A stretch of DNA of 64,000 nucleotides from the NCBI RefSeq assembly GCF_030012525.1, contig NZ_CP124855.1, positions 558,001 to 622,000 of the forward strand, in the 5' to 3' direction. Of this stretch, positions 4,745-11,205 are shown piece by piece. The position numbers and the translations under genes are program-made. The notes below the pieces were generated by a model. It was not told where the DNA came from. It did not search any database and saw only the letters and a list, made by a program, of their open reading frames with translations. Each line of letters starts with the position of its first letter. Within the stretch, counting starts at the first letter, position 1. This DNA comes from Chryseobacterium gotjawalense. Lineage in GTDB: Bacteria > Bacteroidota > Bacteroidia > Flavobacteriales > Weeksellaceae.

Positions 4745-5404
4745 ATGAAAAATAAAATAATTATTTACAATCTTCAAAGATTGTATTTGGAGTGTACGGA
4801 TTGTTTTCTAGACCGACACGGTATTACAAAAAGATATATTATCGAAGGTGTTGTAGATTTCGATCAGCTTGAAAAACACATCCTTGAAAAAGACTGTATC
4901 CTTATTATAAATACTTTAGGATTAGGCCTTACAGATGTTAATGAAAGTATTGATCACTTTCTTCAGTTAAACCCAACGCTTAAAATAATAATTCATTCTG
5001 CCAATGCTGAAGTTCGATCCATTAAAAAGTTTTTTGATAAAGGGATAAAATGTTATTTTGGTCGGGACACGAGTAGTACGGAATTTCTGGAGGGCATGTC
5101 TCAGGTGATTGACGGAAAAATTTTTGTAAGTGATGATGCAAAAAGTGCACTTTTAAATTTCATCTGCAATATTGATGAAGAAGACGAAAAAAAGCACAAC
5201 TTAGCCGAAGAACTTACTGCCAGAGAAAAAGATGTTCTGATTTTAATATGTGAAGGGTTGCGCTCTAAAGAAATTGCAGAAAAACTATTCATCAGTGCCC
5301 ATACGGTAGAGTCACACCGAAGAAATATGATGCTTAAGTTCAACCTCAACAGTTCTTCTAAATTAATGAAATTTGCCTTAGAGAATAAATTGGTTGTTTT
5401 TTAA
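4745..5404 (+). CDS. LuxR-family transcriptional regulator with degenerate receiver domain (CsgD-like)
   Basis: A 219-residue regulator with a receiver-like N-terminal half (about 1-135) and a C-terminal LuxR helix-turn-helix (about 155-219; LTAREKDVLILICEG, then SKEIAEKLFISAHTVESHR). The receiver has lost its chemistry: the phospho-acceptor aspartate is replaced by Asn56 (ILIIN), the N-terminal acidic pair is absent, and the conserved lysine is Arg107 (YFGRD). It therefore probably does not work by ordinary phosphorylation. It converges on the curli operon, whose last gene ends 92 bp away. E. coli CsgD, the curli master regulator, is also a roughly 216-residue LuxR protein with a non-canonical receiver. 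A curli-regulatory role is an inference from length, architecture and position. An atypical -7 (TAATTTCG, 4720-4727) precedes it. Confidence 0.85.
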   Translation: MKNKIIIYNLQRLYLECTDCFLDRHGITKRYIIEGVVDFDQLEKHILEKDCILIINTLGLGLTDVNESIDHFLQLNPTLKIIIHSANAEVRSIKKFFDKGIKCYFGRDTSSTEFLEGMSQVIDGKIFVSDDAKSALLNFICNIDEEDEKKHNLAEELTAREKDVLILICEGLRSKEIAEKLFISAHTVESHRRNMMLKFNLNSSSKLMKFALENKLVVF

Positions 5405-5495: not shown

Positions 5496-7007
5496 TTACT
5501 CCCAGTCAGGCATTTCTGCAGTGCTGAATAATAATGTTCGGGACGATCCATTATTCAGTAGATTCAGTGGCATTTTATAGATACTTTTTTCAGAGATCCC
5601 ATCATTAGAAGTGTTCATAAAAATAATTTCAGCATCATTAGGTGAAAATCTAGGATCTAAATCATTTGAGCCAACAGGTTTTTCACTTGAAAGAGAAATA
5701 TCCGTTAAAACACTGGTTGTCAAATTATAAAGGAAAATATGTGAATCCAGTTGTCTGTGATTTGGATTTTCGTATCCAGAGATATCTCTTGTGAAAATAA
5801 GTTTATCACCGGCAATAGAGAAATTCAGTCCCCCCGCGGCACCTGTCTGTCCGGTTAGAACGGTCTGCAGAATATTTCCCAATGGATCGATAATGAAAAT
5901 TTTGGCATTGTAGCCATTGATATCATTTGTCTTTAAAGCTATTTTTGATCCGTCAATACTCCAATCGCATTCGGTAATAAAATTTCCATCTGTTGTGGTA
6001 TAAACTAAAGTTAATCCGCTACCGTCTTTATTAATTTTATACAGTTTATTAAAACTTGGATACAGCAGTTCACTTCCGTTGGTACTCCAACTGAAATCTA
6101 AATCTTCATAATTATATCCTAATACCGGTTGAGTAGTAGTTACCTGTTTCAAATTAGAACCATCTTTTTTGGCGGTAAAAATTTGGGTGGTTCCGGCAAC
6201 AGTTCGCAGGAATGCAACTAAGCCAGCATCATTATTCAACTTAGGCCTCCAGCTGTTCACAGAATTTGGAGTAAACTGAAAATTCTGACCAGCTTCATTA
6301 CTGGAAACTATATAATAATTAGAACCTGCTTTTTTCACGTAATGAAATCTATTGTTCGGGGTATCTGAAACTTTAAATTGTTGAATTGCACTATAAACTG
6401 GAGTATTCACGGTATCATCTGCCACGACTTGCCAGAAATAAGTAACTCCAAAAATTAAATTATCTAAAACATAATTTTTAACTTTAATATTTTCTTTTTC
6501 AAAAACGATATTGTTTAAACTGTTTTTTACAATAATTTTAAATTTTAACTTTAATGAATCCCCGGGATCAGGATCAGTGCAGCTCCAGGTAAGGTTTACC
6601 GATGTAGGTTGATCCACTGACTGATCCGCTGGAGTTAATAAAATTGGGACTGAAGGTGGCGAGTTTAAAGAATTATCATCTGACATTTCAAAAACTACAC
6701 TTATCCCATCTTGTGTTTTTACGTTCACTCCTTGAAATGTAGATAAATAACCGGTGAGTTCTGCTTTTAAAGAATAATCTCCTAACGGGACATTGTCTAA
6801 TATAAATGTGCCGTCTGTTTTAGTAAAAACAGTTTGAGTAGTCGGAGACGTATATATTTTCACATTAGCCAGCGGAGTATTGGTTCCTTTTTTAACTACT
6901 TTTCCCGTTATTATGCCTGTTGATACTTTCCCTACTAATTCTTCTCTACAGGAAACGCAGAAAAGAAAAAGGAGAGATCCTAATAAAGAATATAAGAGCG
7001 TTTTCAT
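5496..7007 (-). CDS. Curli-locus lipoprotein: carboxypeptidase-like, FnIII-like and TolB-like propeller domains
   Basis: Last gene of the curli operon, 503 residues. The signal peptide ends in a lipobox (CVSC, Cys20), predicting an outer-membrane or surface lipoprotein. Residues about 30-110 form a carboxypeptidase-regulatory-like beta-sandwich (GKVVKKGTNTPLANVKIY, TDGTFILDNVPLGDYSL). Residues about 115-210 resemble a fibronectin type III domain (TYFWQVVADD). Residues about 215-503 contain repeated PD40/TolB-like propeller blades (FSWSTNGSELLYPS, CDWSIDGSKIAL, PRFSPNDAEIIFMN). Its ATG overlaps the csgG stop by 4 nt (ATGA), implying translational coupling. Enterobacterial csg operons have no counterpart. 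Binding to peptidoglycan, secreted curlin or the CsgG pore is a guess; no catalytic motif is visible. Confidence 0.85.
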   Translation of the reverse strand: MKTLLYSLLGSLLFLFCVSCREELVGKVSTGIITGKVVKKGTNTPLANVKIYTSPTTQTVFTKTDGTFILDNVPLGDYSLKAELTGYLSTFQGVNVKTQDGISVVFEMSDDNSLNSPPSVPILLTPADQSVDQPTSVNLTWSCTDPDPGDSLKLKFKIIVKNSLNNIVFEKENIKVKNYVLDNLIFGVTYFWQVVADDTVNTPVYSAIQQFKVSDTPNNRFHYVKKAGSNYYIVSSNEAGQNFQFTPNSVNSWRPKLNNDAGLVAFLRTVAGTTQIFTAKKDGSNLKQVTTTQPVLGYNYEDLDFSWSTNGSELLYPSFNKLYKINKDGSGLTLVYTTTDGNFITECDWSIDGSKIALKTNDINGYNAKIFIIDPLGNILQTVLTGQTGAAGGLNFSIAGDKLIFTRDISGYENPNHRQLDSHIFLYNLTTSVLTDISLSSEKPVGSNDLDPRFSPNDAEIIFMNTSNDGISEKSIYKMPLNLLNNGSSRTLLFSTAEMPDWE

Positions 7008-8404
7008 GGTTTTATTTTTTTTGTATTGAGTTTCTTAGCCTGATCAAAATAAAAATTAATTCCAACACCGATATGGAAGGCCTGATCTTTTCGTTTACCA
7101 TTGATAAACTCATCCCAAGTATCATCAAATCCCATATCGTATTGAGCGTTGAGCCTAAAAGCGAGATTGTTTCCCAGCAAATACTCTAGGCCACCACCAA
7201 ATTGATATTTTAAGAAATTCTTGCCATTAAACATCGATCCAAGACCTGCATAGGCATAAGGGGAAAAGCTAAACTTTGGCAGTAGAAGATATTCAAGATT
7301 GAGATCAGTGTACATAAAATTATTTTTTACGATTCCCTTATTTTCTAACTTTTCAAAACCGACGCTCACTTCGGCATTCACATGATCATTAAAAAAATAT
7401 TTGAATCCCGCTTTTCCGCCTATATTCATTTTAGCATCGGTATAATCACCTTTGATAATATCACCATTGGCCAATAGCAATACGGATGCCCGCGACCTTT
7501 CTTTATCAGAAAACTTATTACCGACTAACTGATGTGTGTTTTGTTCTTTTTCTGTATGATATTTTTGAAGAAGATCTTTTAATTCTTTTTCATGAACCTT
7601 TTCTATTCGAAACGTTCCGTCTTCAACACTTTCTAAAATTAAAGTATAAACCGCTTTCTCTATAGCCTGAGTAACCGCTAAACTTACAGGCTCATTTTGG
7701 GTAAAGCCCATTTCAGCCTCTAGAATTCGGTCTGTGTCAATATACCGGAAAAAGCTTCCGTTGACCGTAGTCGATAGAATGTTTTTGGAAGTATAAATAG
7801 TCTTAAGTATTTCACCCGTCATGCTCGAGACCACGCGCAGATAAACCGTCACGCGGTCTTGCCGGTACTGAGTTCCGCCACCGACTCCAAAATAACGCGC
7901 ACCCATTCCACCCGTCATTACATTGGTATCATAGGAAACTATTCCTCCTTCTAAGAGGATTCCAGCGTAGAGTAGTGGTGGCAGTTGGTCGCTGATAATC
8001 GTTTTTCCGTCGGTTGCCACTTCATATTCTTTTCTGGTAGATCTGATAATTTGTCGTTCATTTAAAAGATTTCCGATATTTTCTCTTTCAATGGGACGGA
8101 ACCATTTAGAATCCTCTAAAGCTTTCAGTAAAATAGAAGTGGTTCCTTGTGGAATAGCGGTGCTCCAATTGCTGCCGTTTTCTGCCATTTTGTATTGACC
8201 GGTTTGGTCTTTGAATTTATAGACTCCAATGACAATTTTTTCTTCCGGTGCAGGTAATTCTTTGAGCTGTTTGGTATAGGGAGTCATCTCTCCCAATGTA
8301 GATTTATCTCCTTCGGCGGGCAGATTCATCATTGTACCACAGCTGTTTATTACGCCTAGCAAGAAGAGCAGGAGTAAAATTTTGATTGTTAATAAAGTTT
8401 TCAT
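7004..8404 (-). CDS. csgG: Curli secretion channel CsgG with C-terminal beta-barrel extension
   Basis: CsgG forms the outer-membrane channel through which curlin subunits are exported. The 466-residue protein has a lipoprotein signal (NSCGT, Cys22). The CsgG domain covers about residues 30-290, with family features such as IVIGVYKFKDQTGQY, WFRPIERENIGNLLNERQII and RVTVYLRVVSSMTGEI. E. coli CsgG has about 277 residues. The extra C-terminal 170 or so (about 305-466) alternate hydrophobic and polar residues like an outer-membrane beta-barrel (YAGLGSMF, YQFGGGLEYLLGNNLAFRL, GVGINFYF ending). It starts 11 nt after csgF and overlaps the following lipoprotein gene by 4 nt. The core identification is firm; the extension's function is unknown. 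Confidence 0.93.
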   Translation of the reverse strand: MKTLLTIKILLLLFLLGVINSCGTMMNLPAEGDKSTLGEMTPYTKQLKELPAPEEKIVIGVYKFKDQTGQYKMAENGSNWSTAIPQGTTSILLKALEDSKWFRPIERENIGNLLNERQIIRSTRKEYEVATDGKTIISDQLPPLLYAGILLEGGIVSYDTNVMTGGMGARYFGVGGGTQYRQDRVTVYLRVVSSMTGEILKTIYTSKNILSTTVNGSFFRYIDTDRILEAEMGFTQNEPVSLAVTQAIEKAVYTLILESVEDGTFRIEKVHEKELKDLLQKYHTEKEQNTHQLVGNKFSDKERSRASVLLLANGDIIKGDYTDAKMNIGGKAGFKYFFNDHVNAEVSVGFEKLENKGIVKNNFMYTDLNLEYLLLPKFSFSPYAYAGLGSMFNGKNFLKYQFGGGLEYLLGNNLAFRLNAQYDMGFDDTWDEFINGKRKDQAFHIGVGINFYFDQAKKLNTKKIKP

Positions 8405-8828: not shown

Positions 8829-9566
8829 TTAATAAATGAAGCCTTTGTCTGACACCTGGCGATCCTGTTCGAATTGTATCAGATTACCGATAGTTTCTTT
8901 TACTGCATCATTGATATAATCTTCATCTGGACGTGCCATAAACGTGAGCACATTTTCATCATCAGCAAAAACCTGAAGCATCATATTTGTTCCAGTTGAT
9001 GGGAATTCTGCAATACGAACTCTAAAACTAAATTTGATATCGTTCAGCATTAGAACAGAAAAGAGTTTGGTGTAAAAATCCTCACCAACTCTGGTTTTGG
9101 TATCGTTAATAACCAAATTACTCAACATCACATTCTCTTCGTTGGATGTTTTTTCGTAGGCTACAGAATTTTTTAAACTTTTAGAATTCATTTCCAAACT
9201 GTCTTTTGCAATAACTTTCGCGGTTTTTTCATCTTTAATAAAAAGATAAACTTTCAAGGCGTCATCTTTATTGACATTAATAGAGATTTCCGAAAGAACT
9301 CTGGTTTCTTTCGGAAGAAGGGTAAATTTATTTTCTTGTTTTGAAGAGGACATATTTTTCCCTTTATCTTTTTTCACAGCAAGAAAGATATAATTAAGGG
9401 ATTGGAAAACTTCACTTTGATTTTGAGCGACTGCTTTTAGATTGAGTACTCCTTCAATATCATGAGTTTCAATTTTTGCAATAACTTTACCGGAGTCCTG
9501 TGCGTTTGAATTAATTCCAAGTAGCAAGAGGAAAATAAGACTGATACTTTTACTAATATTTTTCAT
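8829..9566 (-). CDS. csgE: Curli specificity factor CsgE with an extra N-terminal beta-sandwich domain
   Basis: CsgE caps the CsgG pore from the periplasm and selects curlin substrates. The C-terminal half (about residues 145-245) is CsgE-like: LVINDTKTRVGEDFYTKLF, SFRVRIAEFPSTGTNMMLQV, and a QFEQDRQVSDKGF ending. At 245 residues it is about twice the E. coli length (129). After a signal peptide (NSNAQ), residues about 25-135 form an additional domain with a pattern (YIFLAVKKDKGKNMSSSKQE, NKFTLLPKE, KVYLFIKDE, VIAKDSLEM) that resembles CsgH, the curlin chaperone of Alphaproteobacteria. That resemblance is read by eye. It lies between the csgB-like gene and csgF with gaps under 20 nt. Confidence 0.88.
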   Translation of the reverse strand: MKNISKSISLIFLLLLGINSNAQDSGKVIAKIETHDIEGVLNLKAVAQNQSEVFQSLNYIFLAVKKDKGKNMSSSKQENKFTLLPKETRVLSEISINVNKDDALKVYLFIKDEKTAKVIAKDSLEMNSKSLKNSVAYEKTSNEENVMLSNLVINDTKTRVGEDFYTKLFSVLMLNDIKFSFRVRIAEFPSTGTNMMLQVFADDENVLTFMARPDEDYINDAVKETIGNLIQFEQDRQVSDKGFIY

Positions 9567-9580
9567 CCTTTTATTTTATA

Positions 9581-9985
9581 TTAATAATGTCGTACAAAAA
9601 TCATTTTATCGTTTGTTTTTAGATTAATCTGCATCTCTTTCGAATTACTGTTGTTTCCTGTAACATCGATATAATTGTTATTGCCTTCAACATTTACTTT
9701 CTGTTTGTTTTCTAAATGAGGATTGGTGTTGGTCATTAAAGTGGTATTAAAATCACCCGTTTGCCGAATCATTAAATCACTTCTTTTACTTTTATCATAA
9801 ATCATAGCATTGTTGTTATTTCCTATTTGCGTAACTGATGCCTTCGTAGAGAATTCAGAAACATTGGTTCTGGGCGCATCGATTATATTTAAAACATTTA
9901 AACTGCTGATGTTTTTAAAATCAATGCTCTGTGCACCCATCAAAAAACTGCAGAGAATCGTGAGGATTAAGAGTGTGTTTTTCAT
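9581..9985 (-). CDS. Curlin-related minor subunit / nucleator-like protein (CsgB-like)
   Basis: A 134-residue secreted protein. I use the ATG at 9985, which gives a clean signal peptide (MKNTLLILTILCSFLMGAQS); the longer frame to 10021 only adds a non-signal stretch. The mature part carries degenerate curlin repeats: SVTQIGNNNNAMIYD, RQTGDFNT, VEGNNNYIDVTGNNSN. With far fewer and more divergent repeats than the neighbouring major curlin, and a basic C-terminus (MIFVRHY), it resembles the nucleator CsgB more than CsgA. Assignment as nucleator is inferred from repeat number, tail and position between csgA and csgE. Confidence 0.75.
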   Translation of the reverse strand: MKNTLLILTILCSFLMGAQSIDFKNISSLNVLNIIDAPRTNVSEFSTKASVTQIGNNNNAMIYDKSKRSDLMIRQTGDFNTTLMTNTNPHLENKQKVNVEGNNNYIDVTGNNSNSKEMQINLKTNDKMIFVRHY

Positions 9986-10066
9986 GATTTTATTATTTTC
10001 TGGATAAAAGGGAGAAGCCATTAAATAACTTCTCCCAAAGGATGAATTAATATCAGGTCGTTAGGT

Positions 10067-10948
10067 TTAATGACAACCAACGGTTCCTTTTGGACAATTT
10101 GTTGACGGCAGGTTTACATTACTGCAGCAACTGTAACTACTGTTAGTATCCTGCACAACAGTAATGGTATTATCACATCCAATTTGGTAATCTTTTGTAT
10201 AATGACCATTACCAGTTTGTGTTTGGCTAATAGTATTTCTGTTACCAACTTGTGTAGCATATGCCTTATTGGAATCTCCTTTTTGAACTTGATAGATTTT
10301 ATCAGTGTAACCTGTTTGCTTTGCATCAGCAAAATTATTGTATCCATCTTGATTTTGATCAATCAGATTTAATAAACCTCCATTTTGCCATGCATGAGCT
10401 TCATTTTTCTCTCCCTTTTGAGTTTGAATAATGGTGTTTAAAAAACCGTTTTGCCATGCGTAAGCTTTATTGCCTTTAGCGGCATGGCCAGGACTACCTT
10501 GATTTTGTTTTACGGTATTAAGCTCACCATATTGTTTTGATTCTTCATAATTACCTGTGCCATATTGGTTTTGTACCGCTGTATTAAGCTCACCACATTG
10601 CATTGCATAGACAGAGTTACGATTGTTGACCGAACCTTTACCATTTTGCATCTGGGTTACTGAATTATATTTACCATACTGTTCTGTTTTAGACATATTC
10701 CAATCACCTACTTGTGTTGTTTTATTACTGTTATTCATTTGGAACGTAAAGAAAGGTTTTCCATGCTGGTCTACAGTTGAAAAGTTATTATCTCCCGTTT
10801 GGTCAATTGTGTTGTAATTCTTTTGACCGTGTTGCCCAACAGTTGCATGGTTGGAATTTCCGTATTGGTTAGTTTCATCATGGTTGCTTTGTGCAAAACC
10901 GATGGTAACTGCCATAAGTGCGTATGCACTTGCTAGTAATTTTTTCAT
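10067..10948 (-). CDS. csgA: Major curlin subunit with about 20 QxG repeats and a cysteine-containing tail (CsgA-like)
   Basis: A 293-residue secreted amyloid subunit. The start is the ATG at 10948 (signal peptide MKKLLASAYALMAVTIGFAQ); the frame extends upstream but crosses the promoter. The mature protein is about 20 irregular curlin units built on N-x5-Q-x-G (NQYGNSNHATVGQHGQKN, DQTGDNNFSTVDQHG, TQVGNRNTISQTQTG), each expected to form one rung of a beta-solenoid. E. coli CsgA has only five. Two cysteines sit in repeats (MQCG, IGCDN) and four more in a repeat-free C-terminal tail (SYSCCSN, TNCPKG, VGCH), which is unusual for curlins. It is first in the operon, next to its promoter, as expected for the most abundant subunit. 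Confidence 0.9.
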   Translation of the reverse strand: MKKLLASAYALMAVTIGFAQSNHDETNQYGNSNHATVGQHGQKNYNTIDQTGDNNFSTVDQHGKPFFTFQMNNSNKTTQVGDWNMSKTEQYGKYNSVTQMQNGKGSVNNRNSVYAMQCGELNTAVQNQYGTGNYEESKQYGELNTVKQNQGSPGHAAKGNKAYAWQNGFLNTIIQTQKGEKNEAHAWQNGGLLNLIDQNQDGYNNFADAKQTGYTDKIYQVQKGDSNKAYATQVGNRNTISQTQTGNGHYTKDYQIGCDNTITVVQDTNSSYSCCSNVNLPSTNCPKGTVGCH

Positions 10949-10977
10949 GATTAAAAATTTTTGGTTAGTTTGTGATA

Positions 10978-10985
10978 CAAATGTA
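10978..10985 (-). promoter_or_regulatory. Curli operon promoter, -7 element
   Basis: On the minus strand this reads TACATTTG, a full match to the Bacteroidota -7 consensus TAnnTTTG, 29 nt upstream of the csgA ATG. The expected -33 region (near 11001-11007) is only T-rich (GGTTTTTTCG on the minus strand), which may mean activator dependence. Confidence 0.6.
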
Positions 10986-11205
10986 TATCGATTCTGAAGC
11001 GAAAAAACCACCGATAAAAATGAAATTTCCTAATTGGATGAAAACGATGAAGAACACAGTTAATACACCTATATAAAAATGAGGTATTTACGCAATCGTG
11101 CTATAGAAAACCTATAAATGAAAAAAGTTAAAATTTCTTAAATAGGGCTGCAGATGACTTTCCCACGTCATATTCACAATTAAATGATGATCGCAGAGAA
11201 AATTA

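Follow-up and report, generated by a model that had tools for sequence, protein, structure and literature searches.

Curli biogenesis relies on CsgE to feed the amyloid building blocks into the export pore, and the question raised by this locus is why the CsgE of Chryseobacterium gotjawalense carries an extra N-terminal domain, and whether this domain is a chaperone of the CsgC/CsgH type. The gene lies in a 64,000-nucleotide stretch of contig NZ_CP124855.1 (positions 558,001 to 622,000, here called the window; coordinates refer to it). An earlier note, made from the sequence alone, had proposed that the domain resembles the curlin chaperone CsgH, and that its fusion to the secretion adaptor would explain why no csgC or csgH gene lies in the cluster.

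The curli cluster and its CsgE protein

The gene starts with ATG and encodes 245 residues; because the NCBI model of E. coli-type CsgE is 129 positions long, the note was right in describing the protein as nearly twice the usual length. The gene and its neighbours are as follows:

8829..9566, minus strand: CsgH-CsgE fusion gene, 245 aa, with an N-terminal signal peptide (residues 1-22 by eye)
9183..9497, minus strand: CsgC/CsgH-type domain, residues 24-128, with seven predicted strands
9126..9182, minus strand: flexible linker, residues 129-147, the site of the frame change in relatives but here in frame and without a slippery tract
8829..9125, minus strand: CsgE domain, residues 148-245, and stop codon
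8416..8811, minus strand: csgF (PF10614, E 1.6e-39)
7004..8404, minus strand: csgG (PF03783, E 2.5e-64) with a C-terminal beta-barrel-like domain
9581..10021, minus strand: short curlin-repeat protein (PF07012, E 1.9e-5), whose likely true start, by eye, is the ATG at 9985
10067..11011, minus strand: main curlin with seven repeat matches (PF07012, E 2.4e-16), whose likely true start, by eye, is the ATG at 10948

As for the CsgE domain, residues 149-231 match PF10627 with 28.6 bits over a cut-off of 25, and the family profile hits the E. coli CsgE structure 2NA4 at 1.6e-6; the neighbours csgF and csgG are the same as in E. coli. The genome, of 3.27 Mb, has one CsgE. Other features of the cluster are worth noting: the barrel-like domain of CsgG (PF13505, residues 320-451) is an extension beyond the Pfam CsgG domain (residues 50-264); the main curlin ends in a cysteine-rich tail (SSYSCCSNVNLPSTNCPKGTVGCH, within 10067-10200), which is odd for a curlin; and a terminator-like hairpin (10010-10036, minus strand, 12 pairs plus a T-run) between the two curlin genes could lower the expression of csgE-F-G relative to the main curlin. 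A lipoprotein-like gene with a carboxypeptidase-regulatory-like domain (5496-7007) follows csgG and may be part of the system, since genes that begin alike by eye lie in the curli clusters of relatives (locus L161, 5551-7035; locus L163, 10488-12026). A LuxR-type response regulator beside the cluster (4745-5404), with a weak match to CsgD (50.5 bits, cut-off 250), is a candidate regulator.

Relationship of the N-terminal domain to CsgC and CsgH

Residues 31-114 match the NCBI CsgH model NF041112 at E 2.1e-7, with 30.9 bits, below the naming cut-off of 35, and residues 64-118 match the CsgC model NF007507 at 3.3e-5. Of 46 aligned sequences, 46 match CsgH at E<=0.01 (best 1.9e-13) and 45 match CsgC, so the similarity is not chance; the relatives L020 (43.2 bits) and L162 (35.6 bits) exceed the CsgH cut-off. 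When the whole genome was searched at E<=10, the only hit of each model was this domain, and no separate csgC or csgH was found in the cluster or the genome. The segment SSKQENKFTLLPKE, to which the earlier note had drawn attention, corresponds to residues 74-87, in and just after predicted strand 4 (72-83), and Q77 is invariant in all the alignments made.

Regarding the fold, a phmmer search of the single protein against PDB sequences gave CsgC only at E 0.052, which the family profile raised to 0.006, so the fold search carried the case. An AlphaFold2 model, built from the window protein and 45 relatives, had a mean pLDDT of 80 and a pTM of 0.44; the low pTM fits two domains joined by an unstructured linker (residues 130-148, pLDDT below 50). 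Residues ~27-128 are predicted to form a seven-stranded sandwich, and the two best Foldseek hits among 350,542 PDB chains were CsgH (2N59, 5.2e-6) and CsgC (2XSK, 6.1e-6, 2.2 Å). VIA-align placed CsgC first (2XSK, 2Y2T; Z 12.8, 2.1 Å over 95 of 95 residues) and gave CsgH a Z of 11.1. The Ig-like fold is common, and unrelated Ig-like domains of GH2 enzymes and transglutaminases reach Z values of 10-12 (GH2 up to 11.9); nevertheless, fold and profile agree, so that homology to CsgC/CsgH is well supported. A fold unrelated to these proteins, which would have spoken against the earlier note, was not obtained, and its interpretation is supported.

The domain is not assigned to either of the two subfamilies. 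Taylor 2016 (PMC4838910) sorts CsgC from CsgH by their cysteine pattern, CxC in the former and a distant pair in the latter, but the window domain has no cysteines, and only 6 of 123 domains contain any; for this reason, it is referred to here as a CsgC/CsgH-superfamily domain. Compared with CsgH of Alphaproteobacteria (R. palustris CsgH, 2N59), it shares the predicted seven-stranded Ig-like fold, a significant profile match and the place beside the curlin genes, but it is fused to CsgE and lacks the cysteine pair. Compared with E. coli CsgC, it has no CxC motif, it is not a free protein, and residue K74, critical in Taylor 2016, aligns with glutamate 93 (with the numbering offset inferred from the construct and the alignment). 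The evidence from the pI is inconclusive: the pI of 8.79 against 6.68 for the main curlin fits Taylor 2016, but the second curlin has 8.96 and the median of 123 domains is only 5.84.

These differences leave room for an alternative, namely that the domain is an Ig-like spacer or docking module descended from CsgH, positioning CsgE on CsgG or near the cell wall without anti-amyloid activity. In its favour, the basic patch is not conserved overall, K74 is replaced, and other Bacteroidota put a LysM domain in the same place on CsgE (over the Pfam cut-off in three of ten proteins scanned and just below it in a fourth, L171; the others are L168, L177 and L180), suggesting that CsgE N-termini repeatedly take on accessory domains. 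However, this reading appears unlikely, because the domain shares invariant core residues with stand-alone CsgH (Y59, Q77, L91, N97, D102, L108 and D122) and because in 46 relatives it is predicted to be made free of CsgE, which a spacer would not need.

In conclusion, the best explanation, with a probability of about 0.72, is that the gene encodes a periplasmic protein in which a CsgC/CsgH-type anti-amyloid chaperone domain is tethered by a flexible linker of ~20 residues to the N-terminus of CsgE; the two domains, their identity by profile and predicted fold, and the intact cluster are established, while the anti-amyloid activity, the ring geometry and the hand-over of curlin are inferred. 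Likely, the CsgH domain delays curlin nucleation and CsgE delivers curlin to CsgG; on one chain, the cap carries its own chaperones.

A frame change between the two domains in relatives

The distribution of the fusion was examined in several sets of genomes. The 80 named loci kept from a genome collection (the 80 best of 94 relatives) are all single ORFs with both domains, mostly from Chryseobacterium and Kaistella, with a few from Epilithonimonas, Moheibacter and Faecalibacter; the nearest is that of Kaistella sp. SH40-3, at 81% identity. Matches were found in 156 of 320 genomes of the window's family, in 41 of 395 genomes of a phylum-wide draw, and in 94 of 398 genomes of one genus from another family of the same order (g34, probably Flavobacterium, by inference). 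In five genomes of the phylum draw (G483, G698, G512, G655 and G621), outside the window's order, a stand-alone csgH lies beside the curlin genes (L163 10032-10439; L164 9366-9779; L165 5913-6449; L166 10346-10765; L178 8995-9444), scoring 53-62 bits against the CsgH model, while their CsgE shows no such domain.

In 46 loci, from three genera, the CsgH domain is a complete ORF with a signal-like N-terminus (by eye), and CsgE follows in another frame. These are 41 of the 94 matching genomes of g34, plus G636, G010, G056, G006 and G060; a two-piece match of the family search (G084) is not among them, and one match at E 3.9e-4 in an 842-aa frame (G785) was taken as spurious. Together with the five stand-alone genes, these free-standing ORFs strengthen the explanation given in the earlier note for the missing csgC and csgH. 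The CsgE frame is -1 in 45 of the 46 loci and +1 in one. The junction holds exactly ten A's in 44, nine in one and twelve in one, the +1 case; the codons are GAA or CAA AAA AAA AAG in 42, GTA AAA AAA AAG in one, and end in AAA in three. The zero-frame stop follows 0-4 codons later (10 in one). CsgE in these loci has no signal peptide, and in 35 of 46 no ATG, GTG or TTG precedes its domain in its frame; in the 16 of these genomes searched for CsgE, each has only one, in the shifted frame.

Several findings indicate that this arrangement is not decay. The CsgE parts evolve under purifying selection, with a median dN/dS of 0.063 over the 182 of 1,035 pairs with dS 0.15-1.2 (0.093 over 113 for the CsgH parts). 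Runs of ten A's are absent from 284,079 coding nt sampled in four such genomes, and 400 kb read on both strands held six A10 and one A12. AAG is the last tract codon in 43 of 46 loci, although only 147 of 888 other Lys codons in the same genes are AAG, and the flanks differ at a median 42% of positions between g34 members (ungapped comparison) while the tract stays. On the tree, the split state needs six changes, at least four of them forced by starred branches (a main g34 clade, locus L231 apart from it, the g11 trio, and L020), and these changes may be gains or losses; it is a quick tree with long-branch warnings, and its rows are not independent, so that p-values on rows are only indicative.

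By strong comparative inference, therefore, these relatives make the two-domain product by a frame change at the A10 tract between the domains, giving free CsgH plus a CsgH-CsgE fusion. Two other readings were considered. Two separately translated genes (coupled re-initiation) could be invoked because the ORFs overlap or abut and 11 of 46 loci have some start codon in the CsgE frame before the domain; however, these starts lie within about 20 nt of the junction, leaving no room for a signal peptide, so CsgE could not reach the periplasm. Sequencing errors in the homopolymer do not account for the same A10 and -1 offset in over 40 separate assemblies, several in one contig, and in lineages that the tree keeps apart; both possibilities are very improbable. 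As for phase variation, with DNA slippage turning CsgE on or off, homopolymers mutate easily and Antonov 2013 discusses poly-A phase variation in surface proteins; still, it is judged unlikely, because 44 of 46 loci are fixed at exactly A10 and 45 of 46 at -1, and the off state would be nearly universal in its clade while CsgE stays under purifying selection.

Further evidence against phase variation comes from the in-frame members with such a tract, which have a nearby stop in the -1 frame. Of 57 in-frame loci of g34's family, 8 carry A9-A11 at the junction, and in 6 of these 8 a -1 slip would meet a stop after at most one codon, against 10 of 49 without the run (Fisher p 0.004, rows related). 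Zero-frame and shifted products are thus swapped but both remain available, as Atkins 2016 (PMC5009743) describes for dnaX. In Chryseobacterium, the junction KKK is mostly written AAA AAG AAA (25 of 37, counted by eye), and four in-frame loci with A10 (L052, L086, L087 and L090) have a -1 stop after two codons. The window gene instead has a longest junction A-run of 6, and no slippery tract was found; hence, only the fusion is expected in this species.

The shift may be ribosomal or transcriptional: the preference for AAG and a modest excess of downstream folding (z -1.36 in 46 split loci against -0.77 in 69 in-frame loci, p 0.006 with related rows) would fit the former, while a tract of ten rather than seven and the A12/+1 case would fit the latter. 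AGGAGG-like matches upstream of the tract were weak, and F. johnsoniae rarely uses Shine-Dalgarno pairing (PMC8710568), which makes an SD-driven stimulator less likely.

Known systems and biological meaning

The domain families are known, and Taylor 2016 notes CsgH-like subfamilies in Bacteroidetes but contains no word starting with 'fus'; likewise, Antonov 2013 and the part of Atkins 2016 that was searched hold no word starting with 'curli' or 'csg'. No report of the fusion or of the recoding was found, although the search covered open-access papers and lacked most subscription ones, so absence is not proof. The junction in relatives would work like dnaX recoding (A AAA AAG; A9-A10 in Thermus and Chlorobi), where one tract gives a short and a long product and either can be the zero-frame one, but it sits at a chaperone/adaptor boundary. 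It would also work like the lambda gpG/gpGT tail-assembly chaperone, a short chaperone and a frameshifted chaperone-plus-adaptor fusion from one message, with a different substrate and compartment and with no homology claimed. It is probable, although no recoding product has been observed, that across Flavobacteriales the curli system sets the ratio of free to channel-tethered chaperone by programmed recoding (ribosomal -1 frameshift and/or transcriptional slippage) at this tract; this would be a cellular counterpart of gpG/gpGT and, to our knowledge, the first recoding event in a functional-amyloid pathway. In split species, free CsgH would patrol the periplasm and a recoded fraction would become the fusion, the only source of CsgE.

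CsgC, CsgH and CsgE are studied as separate natural amyloid inhibitors, and how curlin passes from chaperone to channel is unclear. The natural fusion suggests that the chaperone acts next to the CsgE cap, and it provides a one-chain construct for structural work. The recoding-type junction in relatives suggests that free and tethered chaperone are both wanted, in a ratio that single-base changes could tune; it also bears on annotation, because in many species csgE looks like a start-less fragment but appears functional.
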